Source: Thuidium tamariscinum (Eukaryota; Streptophyta; Bryopsida; Hypnales; Thuidiaceae). Taken from it: 64,000 bases of DNA. The notes beneath the pieces were generated by a model, which was not told the DNA's origin, did not search any database, and saw nothing but the letters and a program-made list of their open reading frames with translations. Location of the stretch: contig OX344753.2 of assembly GCA_947034885.2 (NCBI GenBank), positions 14,198,001 to 14,262,000 on the forward strand, read 5' to 3'. The position numbers and the translations under genes are program-made. Positions 13,308-48,921 of the stretch are shown one piece after another (positions within the stretch are counted from its first letter, which is position 1; each line of letters begins with the position of its first letter).

Positions 13308-14894
13308 CTACTGGGGGTCATCAAAGTGCGAGAAGTCGGGGGAGCAGTTGAGCCCGCCCTTGGGGGTGATGTGCTTGCCCAGCAAGAAAGCCGTCACGGC
13401 GGTCTTGTTGAACGTGTTGGACGTGTGGATGCCGTCCCAGCTCAGATGCGCCGCGGGATCCTTGCAGAACGACGACGTCAAATTCACGAACTGGTTGTCC
13501 ACCAGGCCCGAGTGCCCGCAAGTCACCTCCTTGTTGAAGTTGTATGCGCCACCCGCTCCGCAGCACGCCTGCAGGGGCGCTGTCACGTTGTACTTCTTCG
13601 GCTCCTTCAGGATGTCCGTGTACACACCATGAGCATCGCCGTACACCAGCTGCGCCTGCGGGTACTTGGCCCTCAGCTCCTCCATCTTCTCGCCCAGCAG
13701 CTGGTTGTGGTGGTGCGTGATCTTGTTGAGGTCGCTCAGGCAGCCGTGGCTGTCGTACTTGGCTTGCGGGCCACCGTACATCGACAGCATGGCGGGCATA
13801 CAACCCAACGGAGGCAGGTTCACCACCACAATGGTGCGGGCCGTGGGCATCTGCAGCGTGGCCGTCGCCGGAGGCGTGTACAGCACGGGCGTGAGCAGGG
13901 CCTTGATGTGCGTTTCAATGGCTTCCACCACCTTGGGCACGATGTAGCGCGTCTGGCGCGGCGTGAGCGTCTTGTCATACAGGCTTGAGAAGTAGTCCTG
14001 GTAACCGGACCACACCAGGAACAACGACTCGCTCACGGTGTCCAGCTTGGGCAGGCTTTGGTTGAGCCCGGGCGCGTGGAATTTGGGGCTTTCGTAGAAC
14101 CACACGCGCACTTTGTAGCCCTCGTACCACTGCTGCTGCACGTCCAGCGAGAAGGGACTGTTGAATCCCGAGTCCCTGCGCCACACCTTCACGCTCCTTG
14201 CAGGCGCGCCGTAAGCCGCGAAGTTGGTGCCGTAGGTGAAGTCTGCACCCGTGCCTCGCAGGACGGGGTAGATGGGTCGCAAGCGCACTCCGAAAGCTGC
14301 CATTCAACAGAGCCAACAGAAAATCCAATCAGTTCACAGTCTACGACGAACCATTAAGTAATACCGGGGCAACTGGATACATCTCATCACGTAGCGATGA
14401 CACAGATTGTAAATCAATCCCTATTTGATAGTGACTGGGAATCTGCAAATTCGCTTCTTTGATGGTGGTGCTGGCTAGCTTCCATGCCAGTGTGTATTAT
14501 CAATTACTTGCTGGATTAGTTGGTATTTGAAGGTTGTGTGTCATATTATTTCGTGCTGGATTAGTCGGTATTCAATTTAGGGTTGCAGGATAGAATTGGA
14601 ATGAGCTGGGTTCGTACCAAGGAAGTCGAGCAACAATTTGCCGTCGGTGTATCGATCCGCGGCATGGCCTGGAAACAGATTGCCATGGGGATCGAGCTCG
14701 GCGTGGGCGAACTGGTCGGGGAAGGCCGCGATGGAGTTTCCAGTGTCGGTCAGCGAGTCTCCGAACGCAAACACCGCCGGGAACTTGCACTCGGGCAAGG
14801 CCTCTTTGGCCGAAGCCACTTGCATCGATTGCAGTAGGCAAGCAGCGACGAGGACACCCCAGTAGAGCATCCCCAGTCTCGACGTGGTCGCCAT
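13308..14894 (-). CDS. Secreted GDSL esterase/lipase, copy B (two exons)
   Basis: Exons are 14618-14894 and 13308-14296 with a 321-bp GT-AG intron at exactly the same codon as in copy A, again giving 421 residues. The signal peptide (MATTSRLGMLYWGVLV...) and block I FGDSLTDTGN (Ser47) are present. So are VVNLPPLGCMPA and the catalytic Asp380/His383, and block III again has Gln for Asn (SGYQDY). It differs from copy A by a small number of substitutions (for example FHAPGLNQ against FHTPNLNQ). Homology to the copy A 5' region stops at about 15098, just beyond GGACCAACTGCGACTC, so the TATA-bearing promoter of A and C is not present. B may therefore be expressed differently or be silent. It lies on the opposite strand to A, 11 kb away. 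Confidence 0.92.
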
Positions 14895-15098
14895 TCTTGA
14901 TGTCGTATCCAGTCCCGAAGCCAAATTTCGAATCCACCCGCTAGCAAAGCAAGTTTCTCGATTCGATTCCAAAAGCTTTTCAGTCAATCCAGTGTTGTTC
15001 ACTTCCCGAGAAGCCGTCCACACATGTAAGAAGAAGAGTCGAGTCCCCAGCCGATCGATCTCGTATTCCGGTGGCCAGAGTCGCAGTTGGTCCACATG

Positions 15099-22364: not shown

Positions 22365-24616
22365 TTACTTGGGAGGGCCCGATGAAGAACACCATCCACT
22401 GCGAGCAATTAAGGAAATTGTAATAAATGTTAAAACGATGAATGATAGGGAAAATCTATCGAGAGCTAAAAATGTTGGCTAATTAAAATAAAAAACATGC
22501 TGGAAATAAGTAACATGAACATCAATATGAACAGCATTGGTAAGAGAGATGAAATGATCATGACGAGCTGAATGTGTGATGACATCGTGTGCATTTCAAC
22601 ATGAAAACAAGTTAGACTGAGACAGTAAGTTTACTTACGCGACACAACTCTTCTCAGGGGTATTGGCAGTTTCACAGTCCTGGTCAGATCCACACGGACA
22701 ACAAGTTCCCGCTTTGCAGACATGAAATCCGTTTTCCTTATCTTCGCACGAATTCGCACAGGCACCGCAATTATAAATGTCGTCGGCAATCGGGACCTCG
22801 CAGCCATCTTCAGCGTCGCCATTGCAATCCATATATCCGTCCTTGCAGGTAAAGTCGCACTTTCCACCAGCGCAGTACGGAATGGCATTCGGAGGACAGG
22901 GGCACGTGTTGTTACAATCCCCACAGTTCATAACGTCGGTTTGGAACGTCGTGATGTCGACCTCGCAGCCGTCCGCCGCCTCGCCATTGCAGTCCTTAAA
23001 CCCGTCCTTACAAGTGTACCCACAAGATCCAGCAGCGCAAGTCGGTACAGTGTTATCAGGACAGTCGCATTTGTTTTCACAACCGCCACAGTTCAGGGGG
23101 TCTGTTTCCAAAGGGACCTCGCAGCCATCAGCAGCATCGCCATTGCAATTTTCGAATCCGGTCTCGCAGGTAAACCCGCACACTCCATCAGTACAAGTAG
23201 GAGTGGCATTTGCAGGAGTGGGGCACTTGTTTCCACAAGCTCCACAGTTCAACGTGTCGACTTGCAGAGTCGCGTCGGTGACTTCGCACCCATCCGCCAA
23301 CAAGCCATTGCAATCATTGAATCCGTCGTTGCAGCACTTGATGCCACAAGTACCACTCGAGCACAGCGGTTGCGCATTAGGAATGCTGCACGCCACCCCA
23401 CAAGCACCGCAGTTCAAAACGTCCGTAGCGAGGATGATTTCACAGCCGTCTTTTGCCAAGCCATTGCAATCCGTGTATCCGTCCTTGCAGGTATAACCGC
23501 ATCTCCCAGCAGCACAGGTGGGATTGGCATGTGGAGGACAGACGCACTGATGACCGCAAGTGCCGCAGTTCAAGATGTCGGTGTTGAGCCCAACTTCGCA
23601 GCCATTTCCGTCCTTTCTGTCGCAATTGCCGAAGCCTTTGTAGCACTGAATCCCGCACTTGCCGTAGCAGCACACGCCATCCGCGTTGGCCGCTTTGGCG
23701 CATTGCACTCCGCATGCGCCACAGTTCTTAATGTCGACTTTTAGCTGCGCCTCGCACCCGTCCGAAGCGAGGTTGTTGTTGCAATCCTTCCACCCAGTCT
23801 GGCAAACACCGGTACACGTGCTGTTAAAGCACTTGGGACCGAGAGTGTTAGCGTACTGGGGACACTTCTTCCCGCAGTACCCACAATTGTTGATGTCCAC
23901 CTGAACGCAAGTCTCGCACCCGTTCTGGTCCTTGAGGTCGCAATTCTTGTACGCCTTGGTGCACGTAAACCCGCACTTGAAATTAGAGCAGGCGGGAGAA
24001 GAGTGAGGCGGTGCGCTGCACTTGACGCCGCAGTTGCCGCAGTTGTTCACATCGGTCTTGATGTATGTCAAACAGCGGCCCTTGTGGTTGTCGCCACAGT
24101 TCTTGTATCCAGTGGGGCAGGTTGCCGGTTGTCCATAACTATAACCAGCTGCACATCAAAAACGGAATATGATTAGTCAGTGCAATGAACAATTATTTCA
24201 ATTCAAAGACGTTACATTGGCGCATTTGAAAACGAAATCTGAACAAAGAACAGCACAGCGGTTCATTTCAGACACTGAAATCTCACATCTTTTCTAGAGA
24301 TCGACTTGAGCTCTGGGGTTTTGCTTGAGGGCAACCAAAAACCCATGGCTCTGCTAAGTTGAAGGTCACATTCTGGCACCGAATTTTTAACAGTTAGGTT
24401 TATGGAAGCATTAACATGCAGAGTGATGTAAACGTAACTATCCAATTCAAACTAAGACAATCATGCAACCAGTAGATGGAGATGAAAATATTAAAGATCC
24501 TCAGCAAATATGAAAGATCCTCAATAAATACCTGTTTGTTGAGAGCAGCAGATCAGCTGCACCGCCAGAATGAGGAGTGCAGAACTGACTGTTGCAGAAT
24601 GCAAAATAGACCCCAT
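22365..24616 (-). CDS. Secreted STIG1-like Cys-rich multi-repeat protein (three exons)
   Basis: Exons are 24532-24616, 22639-24148 and 22365-22398, giving 542 residues. Exon 1 encodes a signal peptide (MGSILHSATVSSALLILAVQ). The join restores the frame (..CCSQQT-AGYSYG..). The body has nine NCGxC modules spaced about 48 residues. Each unit reads roughly TD..NCGACG..C......C..G.CG..C..G..DCNG.A.DGCEV. The first intron has a GTATTT donor. The second has GTAAGT, and its last exon adds AGWCSSSGPPK; without splicing the frame would stop at 22635, so the last exon is less certain. NCGACG plus paired Cys is the hallmark of Stig1-type plant proteins. The DCNG..DGCE unit also strongly resembles repeats common in myxobacterial surface proteins. 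It is probably a disulfide-rich apoplastic or wall protein, with function unknown. Confidence 0.85.
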
Positions 24617-25845: not shown

Positions 25846-26016
25846 AAAAGTGTTGGCTGCACTTGATGGTGTTTATGATTGAACTGAGATTACAAAGTTG
25901 ATCAAAGTTGAATCACCTAAGTGAATCAAATTGGAATCACAAGGTTTGATCTATTTTACTCCAAAAACACTTAGAAGAGCTTGTAGTAGAAGTTCACAAA
26001 ATAGCATTGAACTAAC

Positions 26017-26045
26017 ATTTAACTAATTATGGACAAATCCATAGT
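26017..26045 (+). repeat. Left terminal inverted repeat of the 13-kb element
   Basis: ATTTAACTAATTATGGACAA followed by ATCCATAGT. The first 20 bases are identical to the reverse complement of the right end, and the last nine match its ATTCATAGT with one difference. Confidence 0.72.
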
Positions 26046-26607
26046 CCAGAAATAAATCGGCCGTCAGCCGATATAGTCGAATGCATAGTTTTGTGTGCCA
26101 CAAGCAATGAACCAAAATGGCTGCAAGCACTAAAGAAACCAAAGTATCACAACACCTGGCCCATAAAAGAGTTGAGAGATAATAGTTTATGAACATTTAT
26201 TGTTAAATAAACACGTGTGTTGTGTCCTAATTTGTGACAAAGTATCGGCTGGCGCCTGATACTGGCAGCCGATTCCTAACATCACACTAGAGCACCTAGA
26301 CCTCTGAAAGTGTCCTAAGTGCATAAAGTGCTACGGCATTCATTTGTAAGATGAAGCGCGACAAATTGTCGACCTTAAACCCTAAACCCTAGTCCATCCG
26401 ACCCAAGTAATAAAATTGCGCGTATCAGCAGTCAGCCGATATCCCCCCCCCCGAAAACTCCAGAGAGCAGGTCCTGTAGTGAAGAGGCAATGGACTCGAT
26501 AGGACTGGCTCTGAAATGAGTTGTTCCAATTTCTGAAAAAGGGTCTTGTAGCCTCCCCGATTCCACTACCGTTGTATCGGCTGGCGGCCGACACAATGTT
26601 TGCTGAA

Positions 26608-27258
26608 TCACCAGAATATCCCCTGCCAATTCGGCTTTCCATACTTGATAGATTGTGCAACCTCATAGTGCAGTTGTCCCGGTCTCTGTGCGCCTTTGAT
26701 GTATTCTGAGATTGATTGATATTGGTGCATTGGATAAATGAATGGAATAATATCATTTGAAATGTTTGGAATAACTCTACTAGTGTTTGGGAAATTGAGA
26801 TCTCCCTTGAATGGTCTCGGAATATAGCACGCCGTATCCGGCGTCCTCCTGAGCGCCAGCGGGCACACATCGACGATGAGCACTTGGTCCGTGAAGCATG
26901 TAATCCTGGATGGTCTCTTAGTATGTAGTATTGAGAGCATTTTGTAGCACCACGGGAACTTGAGGCTATCTACACAGTACTCTCTGCCATAAACGAATGC
27001 TATGTTGTCTCTGATTTGTTTTGGAAGCAAGTGCGCAAGCAGAGGCCTAAGCTGAAGTATTGGCAACCTTGACCAAATTCCTAAGTGAAACTTTTGAAAC
27101 AATGTGCTGAACATATGAACTAGCCCAGGCCTTTTAATGACGTTTCTGTGTGGGTCTGCCTTGTCCACCTTGATATTCGGGTCGAGATAACAAAGTAGTC
27201 CCGTGACTCCTAGAACCACACATTTCTTGAAGGACTGTGTATGGCCCACGTTGGACTC
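26608..27258 (-). CDS. Degenerate FCP1/NIF-like HAD protein, gene 2 (partial model)
   Basis: An exon starts at a good acceptor (TCTCTTCAG/GAGTCC, 27258) and runs to a TGA at 26608. It encodes the pattern of an FCP1-homology (NLI-interacting factor) domain. VVLGVTGLLCYL stands in the place of the DLDxTL nucleophile loop, followed by IKRPGLVHMFSTLFQKFHLG, IWSRLP and FVYGREYC. A second-lobe segment, VLIVDVCPLALRRTPDTACY, then IPRPFKGD, follows. The nucleophile Asp is Gly and the next Asp is Thr, so phosphatase activity is not expected. First exon(s) were not found. A palindrome (27333) lies in the presumed upstream intron and another (26575) just past the stop. Further 3' exons around 26430-26550 are possible. 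The role is unknown, perhaps as a binding scaffold. Confidence 0.62.
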   Translation of the reverse strand, partial: ESNVGHTQSFKKCVVLGVTGLLCYLDPNIKVDKADPHRNVIKRPGLVHMFSTLFQKFHLGIWSRLPILQLRPLLAHLLPKQIRDNIAFVYGREYCVDSLKFPWCYKMLSILHTKRPSRITCFTDQVLIVDVCPLALRRTPDTACYIPRPFKGDLNFPNTSRVIPNISNDIIPFIYPMHQYQSISEYIKGAQRPGQLHYEVAQSIKYGKPNWQGIFW

Positions 27259-27720
27259 CTGAAGAGAAGATAAGTTAGTGGACACATGACTCCACAACAA
27301 AAGCATCCGATGAAAGAAGAGCATGCATTAGGTATCGGCCGGCAGCCGATACTAGAGCCTGACCCCATACAGCAGGAAGCATTAATTGTTGAGAGAGACA
27401 TGTGCTAGAAAGACAGTAGAGATGAGTGAGTGCCTGCCCCTACATTATTGCAATCAGTCGATTTCCAAGTCCAAGACCTAATGATGCAACTCTCAAAGGA
27501 AACATTGGAATGCTTTGAGAGTGAGCCATGCGCACGCTTTAGAAGAACTCTGACTATAATGTCTTGATTACAAAAGAATGTTTAATCCATACAGAAGAAA
27601 AAAATGTCCCTAGAAGATTTTGTCTATCCGTGCTGTATCTACAGAGAGTATGTACAATGTACACAAGAGTGTGTCGGCTGGCAGCCGATACACTACGCCT
27701 CCTCCATCCATTCGCGTGGG

Positions 27721-28562
27721 CTATGCCATTCCCAAGGCCTTTAGCTCCTCCTGTGAATATGGCACCTCGAATCCCTTCTGATAGTGCGGTGTCACATTCA
27801 CGTACTAATTATGCATCGGGGTTCCCGGCATACATCGTGCAAGCCCAACGGACGAGTTCCTCTCACAGAACTATGCGACCGTGAGTCCCGAAGACAAGAG
27901 CCGTTCAATGAACGGGATCAGTGTCGCCTGGAGAAATGGCAGTTTCCCTGCCTTGAGTGATTTCTCCGAGTACATGGTGACGGGGGGCGGATGAATCGCA
28001 TTATAGGGCAGATTCAAGACGTTCCTATATGGCTCCGAGTCCACGATCAATGAGTTGTTGATCGTGGCGCCCATATCGTACAGGGAGGATGCTCCGAGAA
28101 TTCTTGCGAGACGCTTCAGAAAAATTGGTCGCGATGCATTCTGAGGGTCCCGATAAGTACTCTCGTCGCAGAACTCCTGTCCAAAGGCCAGGTAATCCTC
28201 TCCGATCTCGGGCGCCTTCCATCTAAGGCTATGGAGGCGCTGCTCGAGAGTGTTCTTGGTTAAGATTGACCAGTAGACAATCACAATGTCTTGACCCTTA
28301 CAAAAGAGGATGAACTCCCGGAGACCTGGTCTCTCTCTGACTGTCGACCTCTGAGTCATACTCTTCCCTTTGACAATGAGTGGCTCATAGAAAAGTAGAG
28401 TTCCCTGAACTTCAAGGAAAAGAAACAACTTCGGAGTCGCTACCTGAGCAGGGCCAGCACTGTCGGGAGTCCGTGGTCTGTCTTGTATTTCTGGCTGGAC
28501 ATTCTCATTCCCAGCTTCAGATAGGGTGTCGGAGGAATTGTCAGACTTGTGATAGTCATCAT
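27721..28562 (-). CDS. Degenerate FCP1/NIF-like HAD protein, gene 1 (partial model)
   Basis: The main exon begins at an AATGCAG acceptor (28562) or slightly upstream and ends at 27880. A last exon, 27721-27804, is in phase and adds YVNVTPHYQKGFEVPYSQEE and LKALGMA. The domain is an FCP1/NIF-type HAD. It has KLFLFLEVQGTLLFY, then RERPGLREFILFCKGQDIVI, VYWSILTKNTLEQRL, and later LIVDSEPYRNVLNLPYNAIH. The last matches the DDSP..NPxNAI segment of plant family members. The loop DLDGT has become LEVQGT: both catalytic aspartates are gone, while the fold-determining segments remain. An acidic Ser-rich stretch precedes the domain. The 5' exon was not identified. It lies directly downstream of the ParB-like gene on the same strand, with two palindromes in the gap. 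Confidence 0.68.
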
Positions 28563-28825
28563 CTGCATTGCCACACGAAATACATAGAACATGAGATGGT
28601 ATGAACTTAGTTAGATGACAAAACATTTGTGCACTATATCGGCTGGCAGCCGACAAAACATTTTTGCACTGTATCGGCTGGCAGCCGACATAGTCGAGAG
28701 GAAGTCTAGTCTGCCCCCAAAACGGCTCCTACTGACATGTCTACGCATGAGTCTGAGCCAAGCAGTTCTATTTATGAAGGAACTATGTATGATACTCCAC
28801 AAACATCGCGGAGCATGTCTACTGC

Positions 28826-31800
28826 CTACGAACCTCCAATCTGCGTCCTCTTCTGAGATCGGACGGGAGACATCTCTTCGTTGGGGAAGTCCTGCGTCCG
28901 CGCCGCCGCGCCAGCGTCCTTGTCGTTTGATCTTTTCCGCTTGAAGAAGACCCGAGTTGAGCGGCGCGAGTCCGCCGACTCCGACTCCTTTTCTAGCAGT
29001 GCCCCCTTGCTCCTTCCCCGTCTTGGTTCCGGCGGAGAAGTGTCCATGGGTGTCGGCTGGCCGCCGACACGAATGTCGGCCATAGTCGTCGGTCGCCCAA
29101 GTGCAGTGACTCCCACCTGAGGCTCCGTCGCCGCGACGACCACCTGAGGCAGAGGTAGCCTACTTATCTCCTCCGACGGTGGCTCGGCGCGCAGATCCAC
29201 GACCATTGCGTGCGAGGAGTTTCTGTGTGGGAGCAGCATGGGGTGGTCCAGATGTTGAGTCGGGGGTGGATTGAGCGAAGGCCTCGGAGACGAAGGACGT
29301 GGTTGCCGTTCCCTTCGAATGAGTGGTGCTTCCGGGGAGCTCTCTGAGTCTGAGTCAGTATCAACCGTCACAAGTGGTGGTTGCTCCTGAGACTGACCCT
29401 GTGGCCGCTGAGTTTGAGCTGCGGCCCCCGGATCCCGGGGCAGAACGAGGGTGGACAACGGCCGCGGTTGCTGAGGAGATTGCGCCCGTGCCGGTTGCCC
29501 CTCGTGGTCTGTCACCGCCAGCGTCACCTGAGAAGGTCCCAGGGCATCCGAGGAGAGAAGGTTCATTCCCCTGACACGTTCCTTGGCCTTCTCCAATCCC
29601 TCCTCCTCCCGAACAAACTCCATGACAGCCCGTCCATTCCTCTGCAAAGCCATGGAGTGCAAGTCAGCCATCAATTGTATCGGCTGCCAGCCGACAGAAA
29701 GTGACTTCCTGAGAACAATGCAAGTATGAGGATGGGATAAGAAAACGTACCAGAGCGATCTCCGTGATGTTACTGCCTCCCCAAATGTTGATGACGGTGG
29801 CATCCTTGGCTTTGAGGGTCGGTAGCATGAGTTTCTCGAGGAGCCCATGGCCGACCCCGCACATCCCGCCATTCCAGTCGACCTCCCCCTCGACGTCGAA
29901 ATTGAACAAGTCGAGCGCCTTGTGGACCCCAGTGAAGCGCTTGAAGATCGGGAAAACACTGAGCCTGTCCTCGGGCTTCGGGAAGGTCAAGGAGAGAGTG
30001 ACCAGAGGCCTGGACTCAATCTCTGCCTTCAGAAAGCCTCCTCAGGGAGATGGCTGGTAGTACACCGCATGGTAGTACCAATCGGTCGAGGATGAGTTCG
30101 CGGTCGAGGCGACTGAATCCCTGAACCGCGAGTTCCCGATGAGGAGCATTGGCAGGGGGATGTAAGGGTCTCTGTCTTCATCAACTTCCCCGTCGGAAAT
30201 TTCAGCTGCCAACGATAGATCGAGCAGCTCGTTCCTGTTCACCCCTAGAGCTTCCCCCATTTCTGTATACCCGAAAACGACGATGAATTTCTTGTCCTCG
30301 GGTTCCAGCTTCATCGTCCCCTTCGATTGGCGAACGAAGTCCACCACGTCTGCAATACTGTCCCCAACATGGCATTCGTATTGCAGTTCGCTTGACTTGC
30401 CTACCGTGGTAGGCACTGGGACTTTGACGTAGCTTGCCAAAGTCGTGAAGAAGACCCCCGGCGCCTTGCCATCCGTGGACTTGTCCGTGGTTGGATTCAT
30501 GGGGTTGACTCGGCCCTTCAACCAGTTGCTTGCGTCCGTGAACTTCATCATGTCCTTCCAGACATTCCGGACTACGGCCGCTGAGTACCCTTCCTTTTCA
30601 GCCAGCTCCTTCCAAACCTCATCCGTATATGGGATCCAGCCTGCGTCCTTGCAAGGAAGAGGGTACTTCTTCCTGGTCCACATGATCTCGTTCATGACGA
30701 TCCTGTCGAGCTTCTTGTCCTTGCACCAATCGAAGAGAGTGATCTTCCCTGAGGACTTGGCCTTGGCGGTGTTTTTGATGCTGACGCGAAGTGCCACAAT
30801 CTCTCGTCCCAACTCGCAGAGATCTGAATCACGAAGCCCCAGCGTTGGCGTGAGATCCGTCTTGGTGATGTGCGTGAGCGGCTTCCGGTTGACGAGGAGA
30901 TTGGGCACCGTTCCATCATCGCCAATGAGTTCGCCGTTCTCCCACGCATCGAAGACCTCCGTCCACAGCTCCCAGGTGCCCTCCTTGATGAAGATGAGTG
31001 GCAACTTGGAGGACACCTTCTCCTCCACGAAGTGCGCCATCACCTTCAGCTTCGCAGCCTGAGTTCAACCACAATGCTTAGAACAGAGCACAAAGGTATC
31101 GGCTGGCCGCCGATACATAATGTAATGAGCTAATGCAAATAGAAAGAAAGGATGCGAGGGTAGTACCTCGAATGCTGCTGTCGGCTTGCCTCCTCCACGG
31201 TGCGGCTCTGGGCATCTCGCCTTCACCCACGCCGCTCTTCCCATCTCTGCGCAGGATCTGAAGTTCTCCTTTGCCACCTTCTCAGCGATGTTGAGATTGA
31301 GGGCATTGGAGACTCTGACGAGTGTGTCCGGGTCTCTGCTGAACACCGGAATCACCTCGAACTCCAGGAGGTCCGTTTTGGCTTCAGAGCCGTCGGGATA
31401 CTGCTCGGCCAGTTCTCGGCAGGCCGTCATCGTGTGTTGCCCTCCAATGATGTACCAGTGGACATCCGGCGCCTTCCACCACGGCATTGAGACGCCGTTG
31501 ACAACAGTGAGTTCCTCCTGCCCGGGACACTTGTCCATCACTGCGTCCAGCCCTTTGTCCTTGGGCGTTGGAGCCCGCTTCAGTGGAACCCCATGAATTT
31601 CCGGCTTCTTCCTGATGGACCCATATCCCTTATACATGGTCTTCACCTGAAATGATAGAAGGGCCAAAACATTAATGACCAGTTACACATGTCGGCTGCC
31701 AGCCGATACAAGAAATCAAATGACTTTGATCAACGAACGATGTTAGTGAACATCCAATTACCTGTCCAAGCCGATCCTTCGCAATCTTCCGGTACTTCAG

Positions 31801-32574
31801 CTCGTCCGGTGCAATGTGCAATTTGCTCGAGTGAATGACCCCCGGAAGACGCTGCTTCTTGTAAGGAAACGCGTGCAGGAGCCCCGTCTCCAGCGCCTGG
31901 TAAATGGCGTTCACCTCGTTCTCTTTGGTCTTCGTGGTGAGGTGATTTCCACGGCGGAGTGCTTCGTCCAATGTGAGCTTGAGCGGCTTCGACGGGTCAT
32001 CCTTGCCCTTTCCTCTCCGCTTTGGTTTGGTCGGGGACGCTGGTTCCTCAAGATCAGCTTCAGCGACCTCAGCCACTGTCGCCGCCACCAGCTTCCTCTC
32101 CACTGGTACCTTCTTCTTCCCCTTCTCCAGCTCCCGAGCGACGAACGCATTGTGCTCATCGCGCTCTTGCTTCAGGCACTCCCACCCCTGGATGAGCTCC
32201 TCTGCAGACGACGGTGTGTTGCCGCCAAATGTCATGCCCATGGACATGGACTTCTGTCCACAAACCTCCTCCGTGCACTTGTTTACCGGCAACTCCACGG
32301 CGAAGTAGTCAGGGACTCCGACCGTGCTTGCTATTGGCATCAAGCATATCATGACATGCACGCACTCGCCAGCAGCCCTGACGGACAACACACTTCCCTT
32401 GCCAGGGGTCATGTTCCCCTTCAACTTGAAGGAGCATGCGATGTCCACTTTTTTGTCGGGTGCCTGCCTCCAACACAGGCCCCATTCCTGGATGGCCTCG
32501 ATCCCTCGCCATGTTGCTCGTGGTGGAATCCCGTCACCCAAAATCCCAGAGTTCGGGATTTGCTCACCCAGCAT
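28826..32574 (-). CDS. Element protein with ParB/sulfiredoxin-like domain (four exons)
   Basis: Exons are 31762-32574, 31167-31646, 29751-31058 and 28826-29641. All junctions are GT-AG and phase 0, and each intron holds one palindrome. The product is about 1,138 codons long and is interrupted once by an in-frame stop in the third exon. Residues 1-230 are unassigned, with a Lys/Arg-rich, NLS-like stretch (PTKPKRRGKGKDD). Residues about 230-420 resemble a ParB-N/sulfiredoxin-like domain: HIAPDELKYRKIAKDRLGQ, then a DVHWYIIGGQHTMTACREL core near residue 339 in place of GERRxxA, followed by VSNALNLNIAEK. The third exon has a basic, possibly helical DNA-binding region. The C-terminal 250 residues are Pro/Ser/Gln-rich and disordered. 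ParB-like domains bind DNA palindromes or act as CTPases/nucleases in bacteria; the role here is inferred. A 5' UTR intron is likely, since an acceptor lies just upstream of the start. Confidence 0.72.
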
Positions 32575-34171
32575 TCAGGCCAGGAGAGTCGGTTTCCTAC
32601 AAAAAAATACATTTCAATTCTCAGTAAGTTGTCACTATGTAACTCCACTTTCTGCATCTAGTGTATCGGCTGGCAGCCGATACAGCCACAGTCCCTTAAC
32701 CCTAGCATCCCAAGTCATTTACAGATCATCGTAAGACCACTGTCCCAGATTTATATCGGCTGCCAGCCGACATCGCATGAGCTCAGGAGATACCTGAGTG
32801 CTCCCATGTCTGTCGGCTGCCAGCCGATACAGCAACCTACAGGTGCCCCAGACTCTCAATGGCTGCACTCAAAATAATCGACAAATGATAATGTATCGGC
32901 TGGCAGCCGATACATGTAATGAAAAAGTACCTCTCTATTGCCAAACCGGAGGATGCCATCGCCAAAGGACTGACGCTTGTCGGCTGCTCAGAAGGACTTG
33001 TCGGCTGCTGAAGAAAACGCCGGCCGCGCACTCCTTCTTTGTCGGCTGCCCAGATACTCTTGTCGGCTGCTCCTCTGCTCTGCGTCTGGGTGTCAGTTGC
33101 AAGCTGGAAGGCAAGAGGGAGAGGGAGGGAGAGAGGGAGAGCGAGAGAGGGAGAGAGCGAGAGTGAGAGCAGGAGCGCAAATGGCAAATGAGAGAAAATG
33201 AAAGTGGCCTGGGGGTATACCCTCGGCTGCCAGCCGAGGGGCGCAATTATGACAAACCGAGTCCGTTCATCCTAGGATTTCATCCATCGCCGCTTTTCAT
33301 CCAAGGATTTCATCCATCGCCCGGATTCCATCCACTACCGTGTACTCCACATCCAGCGAGGTACATGCAGGTGACGAACACTCATTGCTCAGCTGCGTAC
33401 GTTTCCACCCACGATCTCTTGATGCACGGACTTGTCACTCTTGCAATCACCACAACTTCATCCTCTTTCAGATTCAAATTTCAGGCGCCAAGTTCAGTCA
33501 CAAGCATGCTCACCTAGGATTTGATCTTGGAGGACTTCATTTTCCATTTTCATTTCCCACACACACACACTCAGAGCGTCCAAGAACCGTGAGGGAATTG
33601 CAGTGGCTTATTGTTTAGGAAGGATGCAACGTTAGAGAGGGAATTTAGTAGACCTCAGCCCAGCGCAGAGCTTAGGTATTCAATAGTCCTCGGGTTCAGG
33701 AAGCGCTGAGGGACAGATGTTATTTGGCGTTCAAGCTTACGTAGGAAATGCAATAGGATTTCAACTGCTGGGAGACAGTTTTGAAGTGCAGGAGGATTTC
33801 AATTGCAGTAGGATTTCAATTGCATTTTCGAGAATTAGTTGCCTGTCATAGGTTCTTGATTTCCTATTTGGTTGCGTTTGTGCTTCCATTTCCTGATTCA
33901 GCCTGGTCCGAGCATCTGTGGACAGTGCATAGATCATAGGATTTGAAAAATCTAGCTTCGTGCGTGATCTCCGGAGTTCCAGTTGTACGGTTTTGCCCCT
34001 GTGCTAGACCGTACGGACAGTGGTATCGGTTGCCAGCCGATACCGATTTCCGTATCTGCTAGGTCGTCAAACATTTGATACACAAACGTATCGGCTGCCA
34101 GCCGATAGGGTCATCACGGGTTTGACGGAAGCAGAAATTCCCAGTCTGGGTTCTCACCCCGATTTCGAATC
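32575..34171. promoter_or_regulatory. Divergent control region between the ParB-like and DUF7869-like genes
   Basis: This 1.6-kb interval separates two genes that point away from each other. It holds seven complete palindromes, a row of half-sites (32979-33070), a GAGAGG-rich purine tract at about 33112-33173 and a twice-repeated GATTTCATCCATCGCC (near 33278 and 33308). A twice-repeated AGGATTTCAATTGCA lies near 33790-33815. The right part may contain the 5' UTR of the + strand gene and the left part a 5' UTR intron of the - strand gene. No TATA box stands out. Confidence 0.55.
32979..33070 (+). repeat. Array of four direct half-palindromes, TGTCGGCTGC
   Basis: TGTCGGCTGC occurs at 32979, 32999, 33040 and 33061, always in the same orientation and each without its complementary arm. 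Elsewhere in the element the motif is nearly always a complete palindrome. The spacing (20, 41 and 21 bp) is close to multiples of two helical turns, so the sites would lie on one face of the DNA. Confidence 0.75.
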
Positions 34172-37100
34172 ATGAGTGGCTCTGATGAATGGACCTCGGG
34201 TGCCAGTCCTATTGAGGCGTTCACAAGAAATGGCGGGTCCGGAAGACTGAAACTGCAGAAGGGAGTTGTTGTGGCTCTCACACTGGAAGGATTATACTAC
34301 GCTGGAAGGGCGGTCGTAGAAAGGGTGGTCTGCCGCGATCCATACCTCGTGCGCGTTCATGTCCTAGATGTTCCAAACAACCTCGATATGCCTCTTCCGT
34401 TTCCGGAGGGAGACATGGTTTTCCTCAGACACTGCCCGGGAAGCTCAATCGTGTGGGAGGCAGGCAACGTTTATCCGCACGCAGACGCGGAATGGTCTTC
34501 TGCTGCTGCTATCGGCCGGCAGCCGACACAAGTGCTCACTGATGAAAAACCCATACAGCAATTTCTGTCACTCACTATCAATATGGATGTCTCACTTCTC
34601 CAAACTCTGGGCGACACTCTGTTCTATGCTGGTGTAGGGACAATTGTAGAGTGCTCCCCGAAGGGGTACTGGGGAGGCTTCCGCATTCCACACAGCTTCT
34701 TCCTCGTTGTGAAGCTCCTACACGTCGTCGATGACTTCAAGAATCACACTGCCTATTGCGAGATTCCTGATTTCATCTCACTCAAACGTTGTGTAGGATA
34801 CAAAATACTCTGGAGTGGATACAAGGTCAGACCAATCCAGACATCAGTCCCCTTGGCCAACGTTGTCGGCTGCCAGCCGACAGGAGCACCTGCGACCAAT
34901 TTCATGCAGCCTCAGGTCGATGGGAATTGTGAGAGTGGTGGAAGTTCGAACAATGTGCAGATAGAACTCGGTGATCCGGGACCACAGCGGCTACTTCCTA
35001 CTGCATCAGACGAAGACGAGCGAGATGATAGACTCTATTCGTCAGACGAGGACAGCCGCGGGTCTGCACACGACCAGCGCAATGTTCATGGTTACAGCAC
35101 CTCTAGCACTGCCGCGTCCGACGCAAGTGTTGCTGACAGCATAGATCATTCGGATGCGTTCAAAGATGGTACTCAGAGGGGTGACAATGCCGATCCGGTT
35201 GGAGTGCAAGATGGACTTCCAATCCCAAATAGACCGCTCTGGAGAAATCAATACTGTCAACTTCTCAATGACGACTTCTCGGTACTGGGAAGAGCCATGA
35301 TACAAGTTTGCCTACCAGATGAGGCTTGCGATGATGGCGTCCTGGGCGACACGGATGTTGGGGTCATGTTCGTATCGGACAGTCACGAACTGCAAATGAC
35401 AACCATGCGCTGGAAGCTCACACACACAAGATTGGAGGGGGGAAGGCTACTATCAGAAATTGTCACGCTTTGCTCACAGGCTGCTCTGTTGAAGGAGGCA
35501 GACGATGATGGAATGTAGGGGGTACCGAGGAATCCATACCGCTCTGTGCGCAGAAGGGTCATTCCCAAGGATCAAGAGAGCCACTCCAGGCTGCAAATCA
35601 AGACCTCGGAGGCCGAGGTACGTAAGGTCAGCTCACAGAAGTGCTGTAAGCTCAGATGCTGCCAGACCTTTCCCTGGGAGGACACCAGGTCTATACGACG
35701 AAAGTTCTTCGCTTGCACATTCGAGAGTAGGAGGGAGGTAGCGTATGCGGTGCAGAGTCAACTTCATGCAGGGAGTATTCCAGGAAAAAAATTCATCACT
35801 CTTGCTAATAGAGACGTCTGCGAGAACGCATGGTATATCATTCACGGGGTATCCAGGTCGGCCTATCACGTTTACAAGGCTGCGGCCGCCGGAGGATCCG
35901 TCAACGGGTCGCATGGAAATGCGGGGGCTCGACGGCCACGGCCACAAACAATACAAGCTCAAGCGACACTCAAAACGATCATCGATGAGAATGCAAACAA
36001 GATGCCGAATGAGTTTAGAATGGTTGGAAATAAACGCGTCGACAATCTCAAGGTCCTACCCTCTGCAATGAATTGGGATCACATACGCGAACAAGTCAAT
36101 TATGTAAGTCCAATATCTGCCTCCTCGTCTACAGTGTAAATGTCACTCTGTCGGCTGCCAGCCGATACATTCAAGGCTAGACCTAGAATCGAGCAGTCAT
36201 AGATCTTTCCTTTCTGTAGGCCGACACTCGCAGTTCTGTCGGCTGCCAGCCGATACAACTCTATCGTCTTACATGGATACTCATCCATGTAGTCATGTTC
36301 TTCAGGTCAATGGAATATGCAATATGGAGCCGGTATCCCAGTCTGCTATCAGCCGACTTCGAAATGCTCATTTCAAAAACGTAGAGGTCAAGGCAGTAGG
36401 GAGCAATTTCTCAAAATGCACAGAGTGTGACTTCCTCGTAGAGTTCATTGCAAAGTATCCCAGAGGTTGTGATGAGTGGCAGGCACTCGTCGACGACAGA
36501 GAGAGACATCTCAATTACCAGCGCGCTTGTAGAAATGTATACAGCGGATGGACCGTGCAGTCGGTGCAGAATCCATCAGAGTTCCTCTGCATTATTCATG
36601 ACAAAATGGACACCACAAAGACTGCCATTCCCAGGATGCAGCGCATCACAAAGGCCACCGCAAGACTAGGACAAATTCCAATCTCATGTACTGGATTGCT
36701 GACACATGGACATGGAGATGGCGCATACGCGCATTACTCAACATCGCTCTGGCCGGGGGATTCAAATTTTACTATTTCATCCATCTGCAGGGTACTCAGG
36801 GCCCTAGAACTACCTCCTGTAAGGGAATCAAAGATACTCTTCTCCACTCCACCGCTAAACAGCTTCTTCGAGGCTCTACTGCATGGAAAATCGAGATGCA
36901 GCTCATCAATCCCGCAGTCATCGGACAAGGTCACAGACGCACCAACGCCAGGGCGACCTCAGGTACCACTGCCCAAAAAACTCTTCTTGCAACTCGACTA
37001 TTCGGCCAAGGACAACAAGAACAGATTCCTCATGGCTTTCTGCTCACTGCTCACTGCCAGGCGCATATTCAAGGAAGTCTCAGTCGGATTCCTCATTGTC

Positions 37101-38321
37101 GGACATACGCACGAGGACATTGACGCGCACTTCAATTACCTCTCCAAACTCATCAAGAGGAAGAACACTTACGTTCTCGCGGATCTCATGAAGGCGTTCA
37201 TGGACTCACAGAAAACGGTAGCCTTCATTCCGGAGTTCGTGCAAGAGGTGGCGGACTTCAAATCATACTTCATAGGATTCCATCATGAGGGGGTCAACAA
37301 AATCATAGGGCTAGGAGATAAACACCTATTCAAGTTCTACGTCGTAGAGGATGGGGTCGATCGGGGATGGCCGGTCATGAGGTACAAGGTCAGGGCCACG
37401 GATTCTTCATGGCTCCCTCCTGGACCACCCGTCAAAATGTGGACAGCGGATGAAAATGGGAAACCCAACATTCCTCAGGGGGAACCTCGACCTGTGCCTT
37501 TCAAGGCACTCTGGGGGAATGTAGACATTAATCCAAGAAAGAGAAACGCGGAAAAGGAAGTCGCAAGGGCCACAGAGTGCAATGAGAAACAGACATTCAT
37601 TAAAAACGGAATCGCCAAATTCATTGAATTCTGGAAATCGAGAATGGCCAGAGACAGACGATACGCACAGGAAATGACAGGCTGTGTGGCTTATTGGGAA
37701 AGAATTCAAGCAGAGATCAATTCACCGCTGCCACAAACTCCTACAGTGCTTCAAGAAGGATTATGGCCGCTCTCGGACTGGACAAGGGATCACGCATCCA
37801 CATCGTTAGACAAGGGGGCGCTCGAAAATTATTTAACGGACACCACTCCGGAGGACGAAGGGGACCCCACTCCATACTGCGGACCTGCCAAGGACAGGCC
37901 AAGATTGAGATTCAATCCATTCAGGGATGTCCTCCTCGGAGACTTTGTGCTCTGTCGACCATGTCACAACAACCACCTGCTTGGCTGGCTGGGACGGGTA
38001 CTCGAATGTGTAGACATGACTCCGGGGCCAACCTATGGAAACTTTAAAATCGAGTGGTGGACTCCCATGAAAGCAAAAAGGGAGTCCAAAGCGCTTATCG
38101 CAAGGGAGTGCTGGACTCGAAGATGGCACAAGGAACTCTGTCTTCCGCAGATGGTACATGTCAACATTGTCTTGTACTCGCACAGAATGCCCTCGCATGC
38201 AAAGAAAGGACCTCCCACGTCTCATGTCATCCCGGAGGCATCCGTTGCTGCTGCTATTGCGAATCTAGAGGCCGCGGGTGCAACTCTCGACAGAGATGCA
38301 GACGATGCCGGAGACGATTAA
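34172..38321 (+). CDS. DUF7869-like protein, probable transposase of the element (two exons)
   Basis: Exons are 34172-36103 and 36306-38321, with a GTAAGT donor and TTCAG acceptor in phase 0. The product is about 1,315 codons long, interrupted once by an in-frame stop in exon 1. The N-terminal 330 residues hold two related modules of about 100 residues (G.VVALTLEGLYYAGRAVVE and TLGDTLFYAGVGTIVE) and perhaps a third. A Cys-rich segment (CCKLRCCQTFPW) and an HGNAG motif follow. Exon 2 has a CxxC (SKCTEC) and three acidic motifs in the order of an RNase H-like core: IIHDKMDTTKTAIPR (36595-36640), LFLQLDYSAKDNKNR (36982-37026) and VGHTHEDIDAHF (37096-37131). A C-terminal GDFVLCRP..WLGRVLE domain resembles those on plant DUF7869 proteins. 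DUF7869 is a family name recalled from its signature; the transposase role is inferred. Confidence 0.78.
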
Positions 38322-39114
38322 GGATACATCGACTCGGACTTATTGGCTGCCAGTCGATACACCATTTGTGCTCTCCAGTTATGTCAACAACACATTGCAA
38401 CACGGATTCGTCTTCTCCGTGCAGGTGTCGGCTGCCAGCCGATACGACGGGCTTGGCTACATCACGGTCGCATGGTTCGTCAGCAGAATGTTCACTTTAA
38501 GATCATTACGTGCAGGTCCCCAATGTTTACTCATTTTAGGATGTGCATTCTTATCTTCTTCGGTGGGGCTTTATGTTATTTTACGGAAAGCCTTTATATT
38601 TCATAGGATGGCACTACATGTCTTATGACTAGGCTATTCACATTTTACGTATTTGTCGGCTGGCTGCCGACAGGGCTAGGCGGAGGACGTTACTCTCTCA
38701 AGCGATACTTTGTCCTCTTCGGTTGTTAGATCCTTGCATTTAGCACTTGCTGCGAGTTTATGTACTTTCTTTACATATTTATTTGAATCTCCTATGGGGA
38801 CCATTTTGCAACTGTTTTATCTTCAGTGCACAAACGGTGCAGGAAATTCTCTACATGTCATGCTCGTTGTCCTGTTTTACTCTTCTGGCGCACTGTACTT
38901 TGATCTCTTATCGGCTGCCAGCCTATACATGTCATTGGCCACGGGATGGGTGCACGGTTATAGGCACCGCTTCTGATACTCCACTAAAAAAGCTCCAACA
39001 ATCAACAATCCTCTCCTTTCTTATGCAACTGCTCGTTCTCAACAAGGTGTGGGTGGGCTGCCGACACTTTTCCATCATTTCAAGCGTCTTTTCCACGTTC
39101 TCAGGTGGCTTGCG
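38322..39114. other. Right subterminal region of the 13-kb element
   Basis: It contains four palindromes (38341, 38426, 38654, 38909) and a lone half-site (GGCTGCCGACAC near 39057). It has no credible gene and presumably includes the 3' UTR of the DUF7869-like gene. With the four sites at 26055-26593 on the left, it makes both subterminal zones palindrome-rich. Confidence 0.6.
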
Positions 39115-39162
39115 ACTATGAATTTGTCCATAATTCATGCAATTGTCCATAATTAGTTAAAT
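39115..39162 (-). repeat. Right terminal inverted repeat of the 13-kb element
   Basis: Read on the minus strand this is ATTTAACTAATTATGGACAA, then a second partial copy (GAATTATGGACAAATTCATA). The right end therefore carries a short internal tandem duplication of the AATTATGGACAA core that the left end lacks. Confidence 0.72.
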
Positions 39163-42004
39163 ATAGGTTATTGATCAAAGATTCAATGTTGACTAATACT
39201 AAATTGTTCTCTAGGTTGAATCACAAGAACTAATCATAGTTGAATGCATAGGATGTAATTGAAGTTCACTACATTAAACTTCGTAGTAGATTGATTGGAA
39301 TTCATTGGATTGGAGCTAATTGCAAAATAGGAGAAAATTGACAATTTTGTCACCTATTTTCAACATGTTCCACTTGATTTTTAATTTCAAACTTTCACTC
39401 CCACTAGGATTGATTAGAAGCTACAAGAACTACAATTCAAATTTTGGCTCAAATAGAAACACCAAAACACATTAATCTATCCTTTTTTAGGGAATTATGG
39501 ATTTATCTTCAAACAAAGGGAGTAACATTTAGGTGCACATACATGTAGTGCTTGAAAATATGGATTCATTAGTATATTTGTCTTCATGCTGTTCAAAACG
39601 AGTAGTGAATGAAAAATGGTTTGTTATGTAAAAGGCAATTTAGTGACTTGATTACTAAAATAGGCCACGAGCCTTTACCACCCTAATTTGCAATTTGAAC
39701 ATTTTGGGTCAACTTCAAGAGTCCAAGAGAGTAACTTATTTTCTAAAAGTACGTAATTGTTTCAAGCATCAAAACCAAGCGAAATTATAATTTTCAAGTT
39801 AATTAATCCTTGAAGTACCATTGGATTTAGAGGAGTCACGAAATAGAGAACAAATTGGATTTTGGGCAAGTAACTACAGGCTCAATTTCTATTGTGATTT
39901 TTTGAAATTTTTTTTGAAAACAAAAAAACTTAATTATTTTTCTTTATAGAAAAATAGTTTTTTCCAATTCAAGCTTAAGAGCAAAAGTTATGCCTACATA
40001 AGCTCAAAACAGGGGAGGCTAGGCAACAAAAAAAACTTTAATTTTTAATTTTTAAATATTGATTTCTTATAGATTATATTTTTTCTTAATTGAAAAGCTT
40101 TGATTCATTTCATTTGAATAAGTTATGTAAAAATTATGAACAATCTTATTTATTGGACAATCTAAGCATCTTCATCAAAAAATAACTTGTAGGATTCATT
40201 TTTTAATGTAATTTTTATAATTTAAAAGAAATTCCTACATGGTTTAGTTTGCTTTTTAGAAGAATGACATTATTGGAAATTTGAAATTAGTACATTTCAA
40301 TTGCATCTTCGAAATATTAATAATTTATATTTTCCTCCCATCTCATATGTACCTACTTCTACTTAATAATTTTATTAAGAATATAAATTAAATTTTTTTT
40401 AGCTTCATTTTTTTCCGAGACTCTCAACTCAATTTCCCTTTGTGAAGATTTAAAACTCAAAACTATGTGATGCAAGAAAATAAGTTTTAAAAGTTCAAAA
40501 TCAAATAATCTAATTCTACAATGGGCAAAAACACTTGTTTTCTTCACATTCAACACAAATATCTTGAAATCTATGCGGTCAAACTTTTTGACATTTATTC
40601 CACACATTTCTATGCTACTGGTGGTTATTTAAGTGTAAGATCCTACAGTTAAATGTCAAGAAATAAGAATTTTCAAATATTTTATTTATTGCAATAGAAA
40701 TGGTATTTTTGAGTGTTTTTTGGCAAAAAAATTGCCTTGGTCCTTTAGAAGTTGAAATTGTGGATTTTACAAATTTTGGAAGTGTTTTGCCCTAAAATTA
40801 TAAAACCATCTATAGTGTAAAGTCATAAATATCCCCAAAACAACCCATAATTGCCTTTCCATGTATCTAATGGTACTTTAGTACTTAAATACTAACCACT
40901 AAATGATTGATACATTACTCTTTCATGGCATTAACATCTAAAGGACTTAGGCCATTTTCTATCAAAAAGCATTGAAAACTACCACTTCAATTATGTTCAT
41001 GAGTTTATCCTAGGAAAAAATAAAAATTTGATTTTAAATTTAAATATAACATCATGTATTCAACTTATTTGAAATCATCTAGTAAGAATTTCATAAAGTT
41101 TGACCTTATAGATTGAAAGATATAAACAATCAAAGTTATTCTTTCAAAAAAATGCTAAAACTATCCAAAAAAATATGATTTATAAATTTTTCATTATTAG
41201 TACAAATAGAATAAATCAAAGCTTCACATGTAGAAAAAAATATTATCTTAGGATAGAAAATTAAAATTCTAATACTATCTTTTTGTAAAAAAAAAAATTG
41301 TTGCTTGCTAAGTTTAGTTTTTGAGCCTCTTAATTTTTGCTCTCAGGCACCAAATAAAATAAAAAAATCATATTTCCATTAAGCTAATCAATTTGCCTAT
41401 CTTACGAGAAAGTTTCAAAAAGTTTTACCAAAAATTGAGGTCAAAGGAACTTGTCTAAAATCCATTTTGCCCTTTGAGGGACAACAATCTTTTAGGGGTT
41501 AAGGGACCAATTTTGTCAAAGAAAAAAGAATGGTCCATGTTCTTCTAAACAAAATTGGAGTCAAAATAGGATGATGGAATTGGACAATGAATGAAATTGG
41601 GTTGCTCTACTTTAATGCAAATTGAAAAGCAAATGCTATAATGTGTATCTTATGTTAAAATTGTAAAGATCTTGCATCTCCAAATTACAAATACATAAGA
41701 TAATCAGTCACCGGCTCAAATTTCAATTTGGACCCCATGTAAGCTTAGCAAAAATACCTCTTTTGCCCCACAAGCTATCCTTCAAAAACTTTGCGTATTA
41801 TGCAACTTACAACACCCCACATATGCAACTAGTATATTATGATCACTCATAATGCATTTTAGTCTAATTTCAAGATATGCAATTTGCTTTGATATAGAGA
41901 ACTTTTGTTGCACTTTTAATAAAGAATCCACAATTTTGAAAATGTAACCACACATGTGAAATCATTGATATGAATATTTTTTAGAAAAATGATAGCATTT
42001 AAAA
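39163..42004. other. AT-rich spacer
   Basis: The interval is uniformly AT-rich, about 2.8 kb, with frequent homopolymer runs. No reading frame with a recognisable domain, no RNA gene and no clear inverted or direct repeat could be supported. Confidence 0.45.
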
Positions 42005-47372: not shown

Positions 47373-48921
47373 TTACCGGGGATCATCAAAGTGCGAGAAG
47401 TCGGGGGAGCAGTTGAGCCCGCCCTTGGGAGTGACGTGCTTGCCCAGCAAGAAAGCCGTCACGGCGGCCTTGTTGAACGTGTTGGACGTGTGGATGCCGT
47501 CCCAGCTGAGATGCGCCGCGGGATCCTTGCAGAACGACGAAGTCAAATTCACGAACTGGTTGTCCACCAAACCCGAGTGCCCGCAAGTCACCTCCTTGTT
47601 GAAGTTGTATGCGCCACCCGCCCCGCAGCAAGCCTGCAGCGGCGCCGTCACGTTGTACTTCTTCGGCTCCTTCAGGATGTCCGTGTACACACCATGAGCA
47701 TCGCCGTACACCAGCTGCGCCTGCGGGTACTTGGCCCGCAGCTCCTCCATCTTCTCGCCCAGCAGCTGGTTGTGGTGGTGCGAGATCTTGTTGAGGTCGC
47801 TCAGGCAGCCATGGCTGTCGTACTTGGCATGCGGGCCCCCATACATCGACAGCATGGCAGGCATGCAGCCCAAGGGAGGCAAGTTCACCACCAATATGGT
47901 GCGAGCTGTGGGCATCTGCAGCGTGGCGGTCGCCGGAGGCGTGTACAACACGGGTGTGAGCAGCGCCTTGATGTGCGTTTCAATGGCTTCCACCACCTTG
48001 GGCACGATGTAGCGCGTCTGGCGCGGCGTGAGCGTCTTGTCATACAGGCTGGAGAAGTAGTCTTGGTAGCCGGACCACACCAGGAACAGCGACTCGCTCA
48101 CGGTGTCCAGCTTGGGCAGGCTTTGGTTGAGCCCGGGCGAGTGGAAGATGGGGCTCTCGTAGAACCACACACGCACTTTGTAGCGCTCGTACCACTGCTG
48201 CTGCACGTCCAGCGAGAACGGACTGTTGAATCCCGAGTCCCTGCGCCACACCTTCACGCTCCTTGCCGGCGCGCCATAAGCCGCGAAGTTGGTGCCGTAG
48301 GAGAAGTCTCCACCCGTGCCTCGTAGCACGGGGTAGATGGGCCGCAGGCGCACTCCGAAAGCTGCCATTTAACAGAGCCAACAGCAAATCCAATCAGTTG
48401 ACAGTCTACGACGAACCATTAATTAATCCTAGGGCAACTGAATACATTTCATCACGTAGTGATGACACAGACTGTAAATCAATCCCTAATTGATAGTGAC
48501 TGGGAATCTGCAAATTCGCTTCTTTGATGGTGGTGTCGGCTAGCTTCCATGCCATGGATTATGCACAGTTAATTTCATGCTGGATTAGTTGGTATTTCTT
48601 TTTGAGGGTTGCAGGATATAAATTTGAATGAGCCAGGTTCGTACCAAGGAAGTCGAGCAACAATTTGCCGTCGGTGTATCGATCCGCGGCATCGCCCGGA
48701 AACAGATTGCCATTGGGATCGAGCTCGGCGTGGGCGAACTGGTCGGGGAAGGCCGCGATGGAGTTTCCGGTGTCGGTCAGTGAGTCCCCGAACGCAAACA
48801 CCGCCGGGAACTTGCACTCGGGCAAGGCCTCTTTGGCCGAAGCCACTTGCATCGATTGCAGGAAGCAAGCAGCGACGAGGACACCCCAGCAGAGCATCCC
48901 CAGTCTCGACGTGGACGCCAT
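47373..48921 (-). CDS. Secreted GDSL esterase/lipase, copy C (two exons)
   Basis: Exons are 48645-48921 and 47373-48361, with a 283-bp intron at the same codon as in copies A and B. The product has 421 residues. It has the same signal peptide type (MASTSRLGMLCWGVLV...), FGDSLTDTGN with Ser47, SGYQDY with Gln192 in place of Asn, and WDGIHTS with the Asp/His pair. It ends in DDPR where A and B end in DDPQ. The TATA box and about 500 bp of upstream sequence are related to copy A, so A and C probably share regulation while B does not. Part of the 3' flank (to about 47000) is also shared. The coding sequence is intact with no sign of decay. Confidence 0.92.

Follow-up and report, generated by a model that had tools for sequence, protein, structure and literature searches.

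In the 64-kb window of the genome of the moss Thuidium tamariscinum analyzed here (the whole stretch, C5:14198001-14262000 of a 363-Mb genome), 27 copies of a palindromic site, TRTCGGCTGSCAGCCGAYA, lie inside one 13,160-bp DNA transposon, and there are 0 elsewhere in the window. We show that these sites belong to one transposon family, F1, and that a sister family, F2, holds a different palindrome at corresponding places. Comparison of the two suggests a separate DNA address tag for each family, read by a protein that the family itself encodes. It is probable that the palindromes are binding sites of an element-encoded protein, most likely the product of gene A, that marks the DNA of its own element, probably against silencing. 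A preliminary description of this DNA had proposed a dedicated site system for an element-encoded protein. Our results support that proposal, and F2, in which another palindrome accompanies the same set of genes, is stronger support than was available to it. The element and its sites are as follows.

26010..39169, no strand: DNA transposon of family F1, 13,160 bp, with a flanking 4-bp duplication, ATTG.
26055..38927, no strand: 27 palindromic F1 sites TRTCGGCTGSCAGCCGAYA, starting at 26055, 26243, 26423, 26575, 27333, 27672, 28637, 28672, 29051, 29678, 31097, 31690, 32664, 32754, 32811, 32894, 33221, 34024, 34089, 34510, 34864, 36149, 36237, 38341, 38426, 38654 and 38909.
32977..33072, + strand: four direct half-sites TTGTCGGCTGC, starting at 32977, 32998, 33039 and 33060, between divergent genes.

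A scan allowing ≤3 mismatches returned 26 matches to TRTCGGCTGSCAGCCGAYA in the range 26055-38927 (0 expected from 100 shuffles), and the 27th site, CCTCGGCTGCCAGCCGAGG at 33221, was obtained from a scan for complementary arms. When sites were scored at ≥16/19, the element contained 26 and the other 50,840 bases of the window contained 0. The two scans thus confirm the earlier count of about 27 palindromes along one 13-kb element. They also bear out the claim that only fragments occur outside it, as half-site pieces were found at 15048, 47107 and 56159 and no full site at ≥16/19.

The genes of the element were delimited as listed below.

34172..38321, + strand: gene C, encoding a DUF7869 protein, the presumed transposase (PF25273, expectation value (E) = 1.5e-37 for the 3' exon), placed from sequence and homologues.
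34172-36103, + strand: gene C 5' exon, with one in-frame TAG.
About 36104-36307, + strand: gene C intron, containing sites 36149 and 36237; the 3' exon then runs to 38321.
38341..38359, + strand: site 20 bp past the gene C stop codon; its F2 counterpart lies about 30 bp past the stop.
28826..32574, - strand: gene A, four coding exons (32574-31762, 31646-31167, 31058-29751 and 29641-28826), about 1,140 codons.
31647..31761, - strand: gene A intron 1, containing site 31690.
31059..31166, - strand: gene A intron 2, containing site 31097.
29642..29750, - strand: gene A intron 3, containing site 29678.
27871..28656, - strand: NIF2, a relative of NLI-interacting-factor phosphatases (tblastn E = 9e-14 to its F2 counterpart), 5' limit uncertain.
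26608..27324, - strand: NIF1, a relative of NLI-interacting-factor phosphatases (PF03031, E = 5.9e-7).

In these gene models, which are our own, coding exons make up 8,808 of the 13,160 bp (67%) yet contain only 3 of the 26 scored sites (p = 7e-9). The other 23 are outside coding exons, in introns, intergenic stretches, leader and trailer; the gene C intron contains two of them, and introns 1, 2 and 3 of gene A contain one apiece. This intronic placement, like the array of half-sites, is an addition to the preliminary account.

With the transposase as query, Ceratodon purpureus and Physcomitrium patens gave the best annotated matches (67-71% identity). The GT...AG introns of gene A were read from the sequence; its exon 2 contains YIIGGQHTxxAxxL, its exon 3 has one in-frame TGA, and its homologues include P0001-P0006 and P0127. 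No Pfam family reached the cut-off with gene A, and NIF2 had no NIF Pfam match of its own. NIF phosphatases usually carry the catalytic motif DxDx(T/V). By eye, NIF1 and NIF2 seem to be without it, and one F2 counterpart reads ILDMNGVL; from their sequences, the F1 NIF proteins are possibly catalytically dead.

The limits of the element were fixed by comparing genome copies, which also defined its terminal repeats.

26010..26034, + strand: left terminal repeat AACTAACATTTAACTAATTATGGAC, from the comparison of copies.
39145..39169, - strand: right terminal repeat, reading GTCCATAATTAGTTAAATATAGGTT on the + strand, the inverse of the left repeat apart from a few mismatches near the tip.

Nine F1 copies, including that of the window, were checked for the flanking duplication. 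In 7 of the 8 copies with both ends found it was a perfect 4 bp, the eighth was off by one base, and the ninth had no left end in the stretch examined. The transposase-like 3' exon of gene C has at least 69 matches in the genome; these counts are lower bounds, as the search scores the best candidates only. Besides fragments, the matches include at least 20 full-length F1 exons (the window copy and 19 others at 93-98% identity), a second group of at least 10 at 48-52% identity, and a small number of decayed exons at 61-64%.

From the second group, which we call F2, we compared two copies (on C3 and C11). The C3 copy is 21,993 bp long, with inverted repeats ATGCCATATTTAACTACTTTTGG and the duplication CGGG, and by tblastn it has gene A, both NIF genes and gene C in the order and orientation found in F1. 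Between the families, gene A matches at 22.8% (E = 5e-13) and 22.5% (E = 9e-9), the NIF genes at 23-26% identity (E = 9e-14 and 1e-6), and gene C at 47% in the 3' exon and 41% in part of the 5' exon. F1 and F2 have similar inverted repeats (ATTTAACTA.TT.TGGAC) though their palindromes differ: the F2 element contains 46 sites reading ATCSGGAGATCTCCSGAT and 0 F1 sites at 16/19, and the F1 element contains 26 F1 sites and 0 F2 sites. As in F1, the F2 sites avoid coding DNA, with 43 of 46 outside the placeable exons and 3 inside, where the F2 exon limits are approximate. Both families have two sites in the gene C intron and at least one within the introns of gene A, and the presumed last exon of gene A contains one site in F1 and two in F2. 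Units containing the F2 site have also been multiplied in tandem, 14 times as a 48-bp unit before gene C and five times as a 76-bp unit in a gene A intron. The C11 copy has 29 sites of the F2 type at ≥14/18, and gene A is largely missing from the stretch examined. Separately, the F2 spacer between gene A and gene C holds a tandem repeat of ∼176 bp (L051:4779-5887).

A decayed third family, F3, has 61% identity in the 3' exon, and its sites read TATTGGCTACTAGCCAATA and similar. The candidate core CTA S TAG was dropped for this family: C-to-T decay of CTG S CAG explains the F3 sites, so a new core is not claimed. In the gene C intron of a decayed F3 element we also observed six site-like units with a 25-bp period (L056:7294-7437).

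The genome-wide search proposed in the preliminary description, which was to allow two mismatches, was run for exact matches. It found 131 exact F1 19-mers in 363 Mb, and 0 with a reversed-pattern control. The first 50 listed of these 131 sites were set against the transposase matches (42 of F1, 10 of F2): 44 were within 25 kb of an F1 transposase and 0 were near an F2 one. The zones around the 42 F1 matches cover ≤0.6% of the genome. Among the 75 exact F2 sites listed, 65 were near an F2 transposase and 0 near an F1 one. The expected clustering with elements of the same family was therefore recovered for the sites listed, and palindromes scattered independently of these genes, which had been named as the refuting case, were not seen among them. 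A scattered repeat was rejected as an explanation, as the listed sites accompany elements in their own genome. Lone exact sites far from any transposase match, at C1:4546723 (F2 type) and C2:38613693 (F1 type), may be remnants or chance occurrences. A degenerate form of the site was returned from 14 stretches of a prokaryote collection (257 billion bases per its description) and from 2 viral contigs, once in each and with no cluster returned, and a scan of viral contigs with the gene C exon gave no match.

The form of the sites indicates how they may be read. The preliminary description stated that most copies keep perfect arm complementarity, which is true if the outer R/Y position is ignored but does not hold for the outer pair. 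All nine pairs are complementary in 5 of the 27 sites, and ten further sites fail at pair 2/18 alone. At this pair the 26 scored sites have the combinations A-T (11), A-C (6), G-T (6) and G-C (3), the counts expected if the two halves were independent, whereas complementarity in the core is strong. Given this free variation at the outer R/Y pair, the two halves seem to be read separately. The doubly changed site at 33221 had been taken as a sign of selected dyad symmetry. The variant is real, and it recurs in another copy (CCTCGGCTGCCAGTCGAGG in L017/L018), so it was inherited within the F1 family; as an argument for symmetry, a single site is weak by itself, and complementarity of the outer pair is not kept. 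Half-sites also stand alone in the array between the divergent genes, where they are spaced by 21, 41 and 21 bp, close to two and four turns of DNA. In copy L017, three of the four array half-sites were matched, one of those three being mutated.

Homologues from other assemblies carry traces of the sites in their public protein sequences, many of which are single-exon translations that sometimes run on into the adjacent intron. The three homologues of gene A whose translations continue beyond the third splice site are P0001, P0003 and P0006 (44-61% identity), and all of them encode site peptides there (VGRQPI and YRLPADI; VSAGSR; VSCQPT, respectively). In P0127, which has 66% identity across 26% of the query, three sites are encoded, two of them in intron 1 and the third in intron 2, and P0007 encodes site peptides within the gene C intron. 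Peptide patterns, written after examples had been seen, were then scanned against 127 homologous proteins, with the expectation taken from shuffling. F1-type peptides occurred 7 times in 4 of the 127 proteins (0.18 expected), and peptides of a CGG-N-CCG type occurred 14 times in 12 proteins (0.35 expected), in 9 of these 12 within the gene C intron. YRRSAD is one peptide of the latter type, of which several variants, such as YQQSAD, fit only after point changes. In Physcomitrium P0016, VGGPPI stands where gene C of the window has IGRQPT (aligned by eye). Written as DNA, the CGG-N-CCG peptides would be TATCGGCGGNCCGCCGATA, in which both arms would have changed together to give a third palindrome type.

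Considering the sequence evidence as a whole, a family-matched, element-encoded dimer is the simplest account of the dyad symmetry, the independent halves, the half-site arrays, the family-specific cores and the non-coding placement. The sites would be spread over the non-coding parts so that the whole element is marked, and a dimer would read each of them via two independent half-sites, with an outer TRTCGG half and a family-specific core. The reader would most likely be the gene A protein. Of the two large proteins, it is the one that differs more between families, at 23% identity versus 47% for gene C. In Arabidopsis, VANC likewise diverges further than the transposase of its element, and gene A is thus the favored reader. 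Its binding may keep the element unsilenced, or otherwise set its chromatin, by analogy with VANC.

Several results weigh against this interpretation. Site conservation above background was sought in an alignment of 20 F1 copies (the window copy entered twice), and none was found. In this alignment, non-coding sites diverge by 3.6% compared with 4.8% in neighboring non-coding DNA and keep CpG in 92% versus 89% of cases, and the sole coding site in the aligned stretch diverges by 7.1% compared with 3.8% for coding DNA. Such decay is expected of dead copies; as the sites decay almost like their surroundings within F1, selection is visible only between families. There are orphans among the sites listed, 6 of 50 for F1 and 10 of 75 for F2. 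Peptides of the F2 type numbered 0 in the 127 homologues (0.15 expected), and no site of the TATCGGCGGNCCGCCGATA type, which is predicted from peptides, was found in this genome. Gene A matched no known DNA-binding family, and the structure predictions made for its exons 2 and 3 were both poor. The NIF proteins are as diverged as gene A between F1 and F2 and are also candidate readers.

The alternative closest to an element-encoded marking protein is that the DUF7869 transposase, or its N-terminal part, binds the sites for transposition, for example by bringing together the ends of an element of such great length, and that the sites play no part in silencing. A transposase is the one protein that every element must have, and gene C homologues have site peptides in the intron adjoining the DUF7869 exon. 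We consider this alternative unlikely, as the sites follow introns and intergenic gaps along the body rather than the ends, where a transposase needs its sites, and as the inverted repeats stay alike between F1 and F2 while the palindromes differ. The same difference between families bears on recruitment of a host transcription factor. The core GCCGAC/GCCGCC is reminiscent of plant AP2/ERF sites, and half-sites and full sites are crowded between the divergent genes. The sister family in the same host, however, uses another core at corresponding positions, and of the 50 F1 sites listed just the 6 orphans noted above lie away from a transposase, which makes a host factor improbable.

Even less probable is a role at the RNA level, in which the palindromes would form hairpins in transcripts and act in splicing, in formation of the 3' end or in decay. 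As this explanation would have it, both transcription units have sites in their introns, and one site closely follows the gene C stop, but pair 2/18 is non-complementary in 12 of 26 sites, with A-C as frequent as G-T, unpaired half-sites form an array, and sites are also intergenic. We give equally little weight to the idea that the palindromes are minute repeats, mobile or amplifying, that built up at places where they were harmless. The tandem growth of 48-bp and 76-bp units in F2 and the avoidance of coding exons fit such repeats, but the listed sites are seldom away from elements, relatives with 44-66% protein identity encode site peptides in the same introns, and F2 has a different sequence at corresponding places.

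The proposed marking by an element-encoded protein resembles one known system. VANDALs are Mutator-like elements. In Arabidopsis, VANDAL motifs bound by an element protein bring loss of methylation, VANC diverges faster than its transposase, and VANC targets show tandem growth of repeats (PMC5735166). The VANDAL/VANC system described there shares with the moss element short family-specific motifs in introns, intergenic and terminal non-coding parts, tandem growth and a fast-diverging accessory protein; it differs in having motifs of 8-9 bases instead of 18-19-bp palindromes, and VANC with DUF1985/DUF287 instead of DUF7869 and an unrelated gene A (PMC5735166). Both F1 and F2 have family-specific motifs in non-coding parts of the element. 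No Pfam match to DUF1985/DUF287 was found in gene A exons 1, 2 and 3 (to the in-frame stop) at E ≤ 10 or in exon 4 at E ≤ 0.1, nor in 3 members of A2 (E ≤ 10), and P0001, which covers the unscanned end of exon 3, has no precomputed Pfam domain. For the transposase-like exon, Pfam gives DUF7869 alone and no Mutator-like transposase. With neither a VANC domain nor a Mutator-like transposase, the moss element would work like VANDAL/VANC by analogy but is not a member of that group.

CACTA (En/Spm) elements have many TnpA-binding sites, which are subterminal, and CACTA termini. Many short sites, bound by an element protein in CACTA and presumably also in F1, are the point of likeness; CACTA termini were not found in F1, which has ends AAC...GTT with 4-bp duplications.

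Bacterial ParB-parS systems also use palindromic sites. Besides these, a GGQH-type motif recognized by eye in gene A is a point of likeness that fold and profile searches did not confirm, and no ParA-like gene was recognized in the element. No ParB profile matched gene A at E ≤ 10, in a search whose HMMER filters drop most weak matches. The weak matches obtained were unrelated: from the PDB a single chain, that of a MarR regulator (E = 0.8), and from Pfam four families, of which the best reached E = 0.091; NCBIfam gave none. The model of exon 2 was of poor quality (predicted local distance difference test score (pLDDT) 54.6); the order of strands and helices around YIIGGQHT fits ParB by eye only, and a fold search with this model (VIA-align 2) had no ParB chain among its best 50 rows. 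The exon 3 model, led by P0001, had a pLDDT of 43. ParB identity of gene A was thus not confirmed by profile searches or structure models. It is a doubtful, though conceivable, analogy that moss giant transposons contain a eukaryotic counterpart of ParB-parS, in which a ParB-type gene A protein would load at family-specific parS-like palindromes distributed through the non-coding DNA and spread along the element, giving a private chromatin address that shields the element from silencing and from sister families. The end of gene A exon 3 (...VINIWGGGNVTEI...) looks methyltransferase-like by eye only, and we make no claim of such a domain.

The Sola superfamily has a 4-bp target site duplication, and duplications of this length were found in the 7 F1 copies with perfect ones and in one F2 copy. 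For Sola1-1_Ec32 of the brown alga Ectocarpus, a ParB-like domain is reported in an accessory protein suggested to bind its own transposon (PMC12477816). This giant DNA transposon is like F1 in having a long accessory gene opposite the transposase (1104 amino acids there, about 1,140 codons here), but its accessory protein has a DNA methyltransferase domain, and none was recognized in gene A; the main text of that article contains no word beginning "palindrom" (PMC12477816). Literature searches found nothing joining "transposon" with "DUF7869" and, by title, no paper on such palindromes in moss transposons, which is no proof of absence.

Self-marking of transposons against silencing is known in molecular detail for the VANDALs of Arabidopsis, and an unrelated moss element seems to have reached a comparable solution that uses longer, palindromic sites. 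Two families that share one genome, gene order and site positions but differ in the site itself amount to a natural specificity swap, which makes the site system testable. Pairs of protein and site could be developed into orthogonal tools for addressing DNA, and the sites suggest which cis sequences to seek beside those algal accessory proteins for which binding to the transposon that encodes them has been proposed.

Elsewhere in the window there are three near-identical 331-codon frames, by eye like plant GDSL esterases/lipases, dispersed over 47 kb (1566-2561, + strand; 13308-14303, - strand; 47373-48368, - strand). A long cysteine-rich frame with repeated NCGxCGxxC units was also observed at 22635-24071 (- strand).

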